From the NCBI RefSeq assembly GCF_000875775.1, contig NZ_CP010868.1:1437707-1501706 (forward strand): DNA of 64,000 nucleotides, read 5' to 3'. A program made the position numbers and the translations under genes. The notes beneath the pieces were generated by a model, which searched no databases, was not told the DNA's origin, and saw only the letters and a program-made list of their open reading frames with translations. Source of the DNA: Nitrosopumilus piranensis (GTDB lineage: Archaea > Thermoproteota > Nitrososphaeria > Nitrososphaerales > Nitrosopumilaceae). Below are positions 21,941-29,934 of this stretch, in pieces; position 1 is the first letter of the stretch, and every line of letters starts with the position of its first letter.

Positions 21941-22001
21941 AAAGTATGAGTCCACGGGAATTCAGCTACCATTTTGGGCATAAAAATGGACGCAGATAAT
22001 T
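21941..22001. repeat. Second dispersed repeat family, copy A
   Basis: Contains CCACGGGAATTCAGCTACC, ATTTTGGGCATAAAAATGGA and GCAGATAATTA. Closely related to 25247-25313 and in part to 24393-24440. It abuts the 3' end of the exported protein gene at 22000. Confidence 0.6.
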
Positions 22002-24392: not shown

Positions 24393-24440
24393 ATAGAGAT
24401 TCACCTACCGTTTAAGGGTTAAAAATGGATGTAGATATGC
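24393..24440. repeat. Second dispersed repeat family, copy B
   Basis: Reads GATTCACCTACCGTTTAAGG, then AAAAATGGATGTAGATA, upstream of the pentad-repeat gene. With copy C it forms direct repeats flanking that gene. Confidence 0.6.
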
Positions 24441-24479
24441 ATGAAAATGCTTTCTGAATTGAATTCATGAAATTCTGTT

Positions 24480-25220
24480 ATGGGTTTGTTGGATAGATTA
24501 AGTCGTACGTTTGACAAGCATGGATATGATCTAGATGGGTATGACAAAGATGGGTTTGACAAAAAAGGTTATGATAAAAACGGGTATGACAAAGATGGGT
24601 TTGACAAAAAAGGTTATGATAAGAATGGATACAACAAAAACGGGTTTAACAAAAAAGGTTATGATAAAAAAGGATATGATAAAAAAGGATACAAAGATGG
24701 GTTTGACAAAGATGGGTTTGATTTCAAGGGTTACAACATAAATGGATTCAACAAAAATGGGTATGATGAAAACGGGTATGACAAAGATGGGTATGACAAT
24801 CGGGGTTTTTCTATAGATGGAATTCACATCGATACAAAAATAGCCTTTGATAAAGAGGGGTTTAACAAAAAAGGTTACGATGAAAATGGATACAATGAAA
24901 ATGGATATGATAAAAATGGATACAACAAAAATGGGTATGACAGAGACGGATATGATTTAGATGGGTATAACAAAAAAGGTTATGATAAAAAAGGATTCAA
25001 CATAGATGGGTATGATGAAAATGGATATGATAGTAGCGGATATGATGAAAATGGATACAATGAAAATGGATATGATTTAGATGGTTATGATGAAAATGGA
25101 TATGATAGTAGCGGATATGATAAACTAGGATATGATCACCTAGGTTATGATAAAGAAGGATACAACCAAGAAGGATTCAACAAATTCAATAAAAAGAAAA
25201 ACGAAGTACTCAGTGATTAA
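24480..25220 (+). CDS. Pentad-repeat protein G-[YF]-[DN]-x-x, 246 aa
   Basis: Apart from 14 N-terminal residues (M-G-L-L-D-R-L-S-R-T-F) and a short Lys-rich tail, the protein consists of about forty five-residue units such as G-Y-D-K-D, G-F-D-K-K and G-Y-D-E-N, with one interruption near residue 115 (G-I-H-I-D-T-K-I-A). There is no signal peptide or membrane helix. The D-x-D/N-G spacing is reminiscent of calcium-loop motifs, while the regular aromatic every five residues suggests a solenoid or beta-helix. Function unknown. It is flanked by direct repeats B and C. Confidence 0.75.
   Translation: MGLLDRLSRTFDKHGYDLDGYDKDGFDKKGYDKNGYDKDGFDKKGYDKNGYNKNGFNKKGYDKKGYDKKGYKDGFDKDGFDFKGYNINGFNKNGYDENGYDKDGYDNRGFSIDGIHIDTKIAFDKEGFNKKGYDENGYNENGYDKNGYNKNGYDRDGYDLDGYNKKGYDKKGFNIDGYDENGYDSSGYDENGYNENGYDLDGYDENGYDSSGYDKLGYDHLGYDKEGYNQEGFNKFNKKKNEVLSD
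24522..25190 (+). repeat. Tandem 15-bp coding repeat array
   Basis: The DNA unit GG(T/A)TATGA(T/C)AAAAA(C/T) repeats with variations at 15-bp period over about 670 bp; blocks such as GGTTATGATAAAAAAGGA recur exactly, implying slippage or unequal crossing-over. Confidence 0.8.
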
Positions 25221-25246
25221 ACCTAGGGTTATGAATGAATCCAAAG

Positions 25247-25313
25247 AAAGTATATGAGCCCACGAGGATTCACCTACCGTTTTGGGGTCAAAAATGGACG
25301 TAGATAATCATAA
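25247..25313. repeat. Second dispersed repeat family, copy C
   Basis: Carries CCCACGAGGATTCACCTACC, GTTTTGGGGTCAAAAATGGA and CGTAGATAATCATAA. Nearly identical to copy A; direct repeat with copy B across the pentad-repeat gene. Confidence 0.65.
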
Positions 25314-25334
25314 ATTTTGAAACAAAAAATAAGG

Positions 25335-25727
25335 TCAAAGAGGCATGTTTTCTTCGACCCAATTGACAATAGTCATGATATTTTGTATGTTGCCAAACTC
25401 TTCTCCCTCTAAACTTACAAAAAGCAAATGATTGTTTGGGAGCGGGACAGTAATTCGTTTGATTTTATCATATGCTACAATAGCATATTTTCCCTTTCCA
25501 ATTTTTTCAGAAAGTTTATCACGTTTTTCCCAGGTTTCAATTGAACGTTTTAGAGATTCTTTTGTTTCATCTACGGAAAGGTAACTTGTAGTATTATCAC
25601 GAACACTATTCCATAGAATATTTCCATCATGATCACAGATTATTGCAACTCTAGAACTAGGGATTTCCCCTAATATCATGTTCAAAAGTTTCTCTTCATT
25701 TTCATTGACATTTTGTGTGGCAGACAT
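25335..25727 (-). CDS. Small roadblock/longin-like sensory protein (paralogue of 29584)
   Basis: 130 residues. The alpha/beta pattern S-S-R-V-A-I-I-C-D-H-D-G-N-I-L-W...G-K-Y-A-I-V-A-Y-D-K-I-K-R-I-T-V-P-L...L-L-F-V-S-L-E matches a roadblock/profilin-like fold. The protein at 29584 has the same segments (G-K-Y-S-L-T-E-Y-E-E-V-K-R-I-T-F-P-L). Such proteins are abundant in Thaumarchaeota with unknown function, possibly tied to signalling or small GTPases. Confidence 0.65.
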   Translation of the reverse strand: MSATQNVNENEEKLLNMILGEIPSSRVAIICDHDGNILWNSVRDNTTSYLSVDETKESLKRSIETWEKRDKLSEKIGKGKYAIVAYDKIKRITVPLPNNHLLFVSLEGEEFGNIQNIMTIVNWVEENMPL

Positions 25728-29583: not shown

Positions 29584-29934
29584 TCATTCTATTAGTTGAC
29601 GAATTTTTTCAATAATGACGTTGTGTTCTGCTGTTGTTTCCATTCCAATTACAAGTACAGCATAATTTTTTAGAGGAAAAGTAATTCTTTTGACTTCTTC
29701 ATACTCAGTAAGAGAATATTTTCCTGTACCTAAAAATGGATACATCAATTCACGTGTTTTCCAACGTAGTAAAGTATTGTGAATGGATTTTGTTAATTCA
29801 TCTGGAGGCAATAGTGATGAAATCCCATCATGCATTCCTCCTGCTAACAACTCACCATTATTATGATAAACATAAACAGATCTTATCTGCGGTTCTAGTC
29901 CCAGAATTAATGAACAGAGTTTTTTAGGATTCAT
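29584..29934 (-). CDS. Small roadblock/longin-like sensory protein (paralogue of 25335)
   Basis: 116 residues with the pattern I-R-S-V-Y-V-Y-H-N-N-G-E-L-L-A-G-G...G-K-Y-S-L-T-E-Y-E-E-V-K-R-I-T-F-P-L-K-N-Y-A-V-L-V-I-G, parallel to the protein at 25335. Probably the same uncharacterised thaumarchaeal family. No catalytic residues seen. Confidence 0.65.
   Translation of the reverse strand: MNPKKLCSLILGLEPQIRSVYVYHNNGELLAGGMHDGISSLLPPDELTKSIHNTLLRWKTRELMYPFLGTGKYSLTEYEEVKRITFPLKNYAVLVIGMETTAEHNVIIEKIRQLIE

Follow-up and report, generated by a model that had tools for sequence, protein, structure and literature searches.

The window analysed here, a stretch of 64,000 nucleotides from the marine ammonia oxidiser Nitrosopumilus piranensis, an archaeon, carries on its forward strand an ORF of 246 amino acids that contains 40 pentads of the form G-[YF]-[DN]-x-x (Table 1). 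From anchor to anchor, 37 of the 39 steps measure exactly five residues, and the other two measure 9 and 23. The self-identity of the protein is 0.51 at a lag of five residues (vs. 0.44 at lag 10), whereas 2000 shuffles average 0.12 and reach at most 0.195. On the gene DNA, TRF recovers a 15-bp period along with higher-order periods of 45, 60, and 102 bp. An earlier note on this DNA had described about forty tandem pentads, a 15-bp period, and a cytoplasmic-looking product, all of which is borne out: the protein has no hydrophobic segment, the maximum Kyte-Doolittle mean over 19 residues being 0.05. Its statement that the whole protein is a repeat holds for the 40 pentads only. These share the chain with a 14-residue N-terminal cap, a lysine-rich tail, the 4-residue unit GYKD, and an 18-residue insertion. 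Glycine, aspartate, lysine, tyrosine, and asparagine dominate the composition, with 46 aromatics in 246 residues (19%), and the charges comprise 41 basic and 55 acidic residues. An antisense ORF (24531-24827, minus strand) was judged to be a shadow of the repeat.

Table 1. Features of the pentad-repeat locus, in window positions
Feature	Position	Strand	Basis
39-bp direct repeat, upstream copy	24398..24436	+	near-identical pair flanking the gene
Promoter-like block, consensus GAAAATGCTTATCTGAATTGAATTCATGAAATTCTGTT	24440..24479	+	82% mean column identity, 21 species, differing neighbour genes
Pentad-repeat ORF	24480..25220	+	ORF call; orthologues; dN/dS roughly 0.05-0.19
N-terminal cap MGLLDRLSRTFDKH, residues 1-14, predicted short amphipathic helix	24480..24521	+	conserved in full-length orthologues; AlphaFold2 helix 4-10
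First pentad array, residues 15-108	24522..24803	+	spacing and self-identity analysis
4-residue unit GYKD, residues 70-73	24687..24698	+	conserved among orthologues
Insertion unit GFSIDGIHIDTKIAFDKE, 18 residues, residues 109-126	24804..24857	+	motif in 27/27 orthologues
Second pentad array, residues 127-236	24858..25187	+	spacing and self-identity analysis; model pLDDT
Lys-rich C-terminal tail NKKKNEVLSD	25188..25217	+	conserved; also kept in a 62-aa mini-paralogue
39-bp direct repeat, downstream copy	25267..25305	+	near-identical pair flanking the gene

The repeat obeys a simple grammar. The entropy is 0, 0.73, and 0.86 bits at positions 1-3 of the unit versus 2.3 bits at both positions 4 and 5, and since the anchors used for counting fix positions 1-3 by definition, the contrast is strongest between position 2 and positions 4-5. 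Position 3 holds Asp in 28 of the 40 pentads and Asn in 12, the two being almost interchangeable (entropy 0.86-0.99). Position 5 has further Asp and Asn, and is frequently K, Q, A, or L. The residue two before the aromatic, at position 5 of the unit before, is N (14), D (9), K (9), S (2), L (2), E (2), and R (1). The hydrophobic moment of the N-terminal cap is 0.70, a value as high being found in 1.3% of shuffles. At the other end, the conserved C-terminal cap consists of GYDHLGYDKEGYNQEGFNKF and the lysine-rich tail that follows it, and the protein end GYDHLGYDKEGYNQEGFNKFNKKKNEVLSD is strongly conserved in the orthologue alignments.

The pentad gene stands alone, with its neighbours on the opposite strand. 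Comparison of the orthologous loci over up to 10 kb found no conserved gene neighbourhood: the surroundings differ, and the window neighbours recur only sporadically. DNA similarity to three orthologous loci begins at window position 24398, 24416, or 24433 and ends at 25221, one base beyond the stop codon. The conserved block of about 40 bp upstream of the ATG, in which one A of CTTATCTGA is missing from the window copy, looks like an archaeal promoter because of its AT-rich sequence and its distance from the ATG. The promoter-like block and the ORF thus move as a pair through changing surroundings. Allowing up to 3 mismatches, the genome contains only the two 39-bp copies that flank the gene; a looser pattern brings the total to five sites, one of them at window position 21953. 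Similar sequence lies between genes in other Nitrosopumilus, which marks CACGGGGATTCACCTACCNTTTTGGGG as a dispersed repeat of intergenic DNA. The gene downstream has its nearest relative (a 95% identical protein) in a genome that has no pentad gene, where DNA similarity begins at window position 25314, just past the downstream direct repeat. The other side of that locus is not homologous, so that no clean empty site can be demonstrated. Rfam returned only sub-threshold chance matches on the gene flanks. Two small proteins nearby, at 25335-25727 and 29584-29934 (both minus strand), look alike by eye, and the former has many relatives across the genus.

The first alignment comprised 14 orthologues from the same genus, including the window copy, and more were added from genome records mostly titled Nitrosopumilus. 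In 20 of 27 orthologue loci the gene encodes 249-252 amino acids, and the step from one anchor to the next measures exactly five residues in 912 of 1012 cases. A G[YF]K[DNE] unit occupies the GYKD site in 17 of the 27 orthologues, where 0.2 would be expected by chance, and the insertion motif G-[IL]-H-x-x-T-x-x-x-[FY]-[DN] is present in the window protein and in all 27, as scored, like the other counts of this motif, by a less strict pattern that has the same shape. The inner units are homogenised species by species (alternating GYDEN/GFNKD in L006 and L031, GFNKN/GYDKK in L004), and despite this the overall length and the caps stay constant. The alignment of orthologues also reveals a one-pentad deletion in the window copy. 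Measured against that copy, dN/dS is mostly about 0.1-0.15 (range roughly 0.05-0.19). In many pairs dS approaches saturation, in two it could not be estimated, and alignments of repeats can hide register shifts. The repeat is not an artefact, since its orthologues in many species are under purifying selection. Such selection preserves the pentad protein in about half of the sampled species of the genus.

A profile of the family matches 43 of 95 Nitrosopumilus genomes (E <= 1e-5), some of these matches being paralogues or fragments, and 12 of 300 sampled genomes of the phylum, 11 from this genus and one from a second genus of the same family, whose copy holds two stop codons. Within these collections, which are samples of genomes, the gene is thus genus-bound and patchy rather than strain-bound. 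The earlier note had named full predicted disorder together with restriction to a single strain as what would refute its proposal. The second half of this pair fails because the gene is conserved beyond one strain. The search in other archaea that it had advised leads to almost only one genus in the sampled phylum, yet to many bacteria. Several paralogues are of interest in their own right. In the genome of the window, a 62-residue ORF (C1:1065984-1066160, minus strand) keeps both caps and few pentads, as a natural mini-version. Other Nitrosopumilus paralogues (L021-L025, L107, L108, L015, L016, and L028) mix pentads with many insertion units (GYHKATGTKFN...), and L028 ends in a zinc-ribbon-like segment that falls below the Pfam cut-off.

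Outside the genus, the profile search reached loci in Syntrophomonas, Sporotomaculum, Clostridium, Kurthia, Caryophanon, Solibacillus, Anaeroplasma, Fusobacterium, Riflebacteria, Ignavibacteria/Kapaibacteria, Actinomycetota, and Ca. Ichthyocystis, as well as 31 loci on viral contigs. In the phylum of Clostridium gasigenes it matched 7 of 249 genomes, that one included. Exact five-residue steps make up 1830 of 2265 in the bacterial relatives and 521 of 602 in the viral ones. The unit statistics are the same as in the genus, with Gly at position 1, mostly Y or F at position 2, D or N at position 3, and positions 4-5 free, the Gly and the D/N being here too a part of the anchor definition. Among 43 bacterial proteins there are 65 instances of the insertion motif, where 0.00 would be expected if the Gly positions are held, and among nine archaeal paralogues there are 40 (0.10 expected); the 31 viral loci have only one. 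Four-residue units similar to GYKD are found four times in bacteria, against 0.1 expected. The common insertion unit is the strongest evidence here for treating the archaeal and bacterial arrays as one family rather than as chance low complexity.

These unit types occur in bacterial multidomain proteins, where the array accompanies quite different partners: VWA and OmpA in L079, a double zinc ribbon and hydrophobic segments (N-terminal) in L063, an SF1 helicase in L065 and L088, DnaJ and DUF6273 in L098, a HAD domain in L123, and a DUF4145 match just below cut-off in L075. Tandem arrays free of acidic residues, such as (GFNAQ)11, occur in some relatives. In Ca. Ichthyocystis, an intracellular pathogen of fish, the genome of Ca. 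Ichthyocystis hellenicum (L102, genome G399) holds 39 repeat matches, mostly in two gene clusters at about 1.39-1.41 and 1.81-1.84 Mb. Two viral contigs (L110 and L111) encode predicted proteins of 1987 and 1477 amino acids, in which a script counted 118 and 123 pentad anchors. Three others (L125, L128, and L131) have short arrays within small proteins, and two such genes adjoin on L125 and on L128. A tblastn search gave no match in phage records and 10 weak matches in plasmids, mostly from Gordonia.

The AlphaFold2 model of the window protein, made from 27 sequences, has a mean pLDDT of 84.5 and a pTM of 0.38. It consists of one short helix at residues 4-10 (in a part of low confidence, mean pLDDT 51 for residues 1-10) and otherwise of coil with isolated bridges. 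By region, pLDDT is 53 in the insertion block, 79 at residues 121-130, and 88-95 from about residue 131 to 240. The model of a Solibacillus relative (3 sequences, pLDDT 82.1, pTM 0.41) likewise begins with an N-terminal helix and continues as uniform coil. Foldseek found nothing in the PDB for either model, and nothing significant among viral models. For repeats, AlphaFold2 has been documented to produce models that are confident yet unrealistic (PMC11795689), and for this reason the confidence values are weak evidence and the new solenoid put forward in the earlier note is unproven. The charge-hydropathy balance places the protein on the disordered side. A right-handed quadrilateral beta-helix was also considered: the model is mostly coil and matches nothing in Foldseek, AlphaFold2 being unreliable for repeats.

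The reading that we prefer, with a probability of roughly 0.4, is that this single gene makes a soluble cytosolic spacer or scaffold, in which an ordered rod of pentads lies between the conserved caps. The amphipathic N-terminal helix would probably be a peripheral anchor to a membrane or a partner, its membrane role being a guess from its amphipathicity (the hydrophobic moment). The 40 or so units would hold this helix and the lysine-rich C-terminal tail apart. Each pentad may form one regular turn, with a kink at Gly, a cap provided by Asp or Asn, and the aromatic ring packed against its neighbours. The array would thus make a narrow, elongated rod, mostly free of strands and held to its length by selection, and the insertion unit may be a joint in the middle of it. 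What the analysis shows directly is the repeat grammar, the purifying selection, the near-constant length, the conserved caps, and unit types common to bacterial proteins in which the array accompanies other domains; order in the array, membrane binding by the helix, and a role in bridging or spacing partners are what we infer. The strict phase with free positions 4-5, the near-fixed length, the caps, and the use of the array beside other domains all favour a spacer or scaffold. The bacterial arrays that stand next to VWA/OmpA, DnaJ/DUF6273, SF1 helicase, or zinc ribbon domains are as expected of a connecting module. The archaeal and Solibacillus models also agree, each showing a helix and then a uniform coil of high pLDDT. 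Against the rod stand the pTM values of 0.38-0.41, bridges that are only isolated, the lack of any Foldseek match, the charge-hydropathy result, and the absence of a conserved neighbourhood.

An ordered rod and a flexible chain are nearly balanced as explanations. In the latter, a disordered protein would display regularly spaced Tyr and Phe on Gly/Asp/Asn/Lys spacers, making weak multivalent contacts that lead to condensates or to a hydrated cytosolic matrix. This is a serious contender, which we hold with less than even confidence. The charge-hydropathy balance, the high aromatic content in a chain rich in G, D, K, and N, the low pTM with no long-range structure in the models, and a homogenisation of units that is typical of low-complexity DNA are all consistent with it. 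It accounts poorly for an exact five-residue phase kept over 40 to more than 110 units, for a G-Ar-[DN] core that is strict while positions 4-5 are free, for the near-constant length of the orthologues, and for special unit types common to archaea and bacteria. Passive DNA slippage that yields a product without function is very improbable. The 15-, 45-, and 60-bp DNA repeats, the presence of the gene in fewer than half of the genus genomes, and its shifting neighbourhood would fit such an origin, but it is contradicted by the dN/dS found in most pairs and by the conservation of caps, length, and upstream promoter-like block.

The two structural proposals of the earlier note fare less well than the spacer or scaffold. 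A new beta-solenoid, or a distant pentapeptide-repeat helix with several pentads per turn, is unlikely. One- or two-residue bridges at the aromatic and Asp positions (EE---EE---EE) do appear in parts of both models, and the family matches the repeat region of DotG/IcmE, but the window model is mostly coil, no solved solenoid is matched by Foldseek, there is no Pfam pentapeptide match, and the residue two before the aromatic is D, N, K, or E rather than small. Differences of a single pentad, such as the deletion in the window copy, also count against a turn made of a fixed number of units. A rod in which rows of Asp and Asn along the array bind Ca2+ or Mg2+ is more doubtful still. The Asp and Asn at position 3, those at position 5, and DKDG-type strings that resemble calcium loops would suit it, but position 3 accepts D and N alike, positions 4 and 5 are highly variable, and Pfam finds no EF-hand, thrombospondin type 3, dockerin, or RTX match. 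Obligatory metal binding looks unlikely because some of the related arrays have no acidic residue at all.

The repeat is common enough to matter, being found in Nitrosopumilus, several bacterial groups, and viral contigs, and joined to many different domains. If it is ordered, it would be a minimal rod of a new kind, built from five-residue units, that could interest protein designers. If it is disordered, it would be a naturally phase-locked sticker-and-spacer chain, and a clean test of how far periodicity can be selected without a fold. We would put forward only tentatively, and as rather doubtful, the broader idea of a new class of ordered repeat, a non-alpha and strand-poor pentad rod that serves one archaeal genus as a stand-alone scaffold of fixed length and acts as a connector within bacterial and viral proteins.

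Scans of the window protein with Pfam, NCBIfam, and PHROG gave sub-threshold matches only and none of them names it, in keeping with the earlier view of a distinct five-residue repeat. The repeat strings of the family were not found printed in any of the papers searched, and the main text of a proteomics paper on three Nitrosopumilus strains does not mention the gene. The pentapeptide-repeat proteins (PF00805, A(D/N)LxX) also have a period of five residues with one hydrophobic residue per unit. The window protein differs in having Gly before the aromatic, D/N after it, and no small residue two before, and neither it nor three archaeal paralogues match PF00805 at E <= 1. The earlier note had rightly set it apart from this class, and a classical pentapeptide helix is unlikely, as there is no PF00805 match and the residue two before the aromatic is not A, C, S, or T. 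Thrombospondin type 3 repeats, RTX nonapeptides, and EF-hand loops are likewise rich in Asp and Gly, but their period and spacing are different, and they have fixed acidic ligands at a set spacing where the window protein does not. Decapeptide (PF25296) shares short repeats of Gly and hydrophobic residues. A viral relative (L110) passes its threshold (52.4 vs. a cut-off of 45 bits), and several bacterial relatives score below it. The period of the window protein is 5 rather than 10, and the protein has no match at E <= 1. In its genome, PF25296 finds nothing in the pentad gene and scores best, at 10.3 bits, in another gene.

The remaining likeness is to the central repeats of DotG/IcmE from type IVB secretion (NF033900; PDB 7muc and 9ngw), where a Gly-Phe/Tyr pair returns at 10-residue intervals, matching the register of alternate pentads, and the family profile match reaches E = 7e-14. 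The window protein itself scores 18.8 bits against an equivalog cut-off of 750, and used singly in a PDB sequence search it finds DotG at E = 0.023 along with weaker chance matches. We did not accept homology, since the columns of this single-protein alignment are essentially Gly plus aromatic, and the alignment therefore rests on the G-aromatic spacing. In the aligned stretch, alternate DotG units have neither Gly nor D/N, whereas the window protein has Gly-aromatic every five residues plus Asp/Asn. With tandem G-Ar-[DN]-x-x units in strict phase and the insertion unit, the window protein belongs by its sequence features to a widespread and essentially unnamed repeat family, found in bacteria and viral contigs besides archaea.
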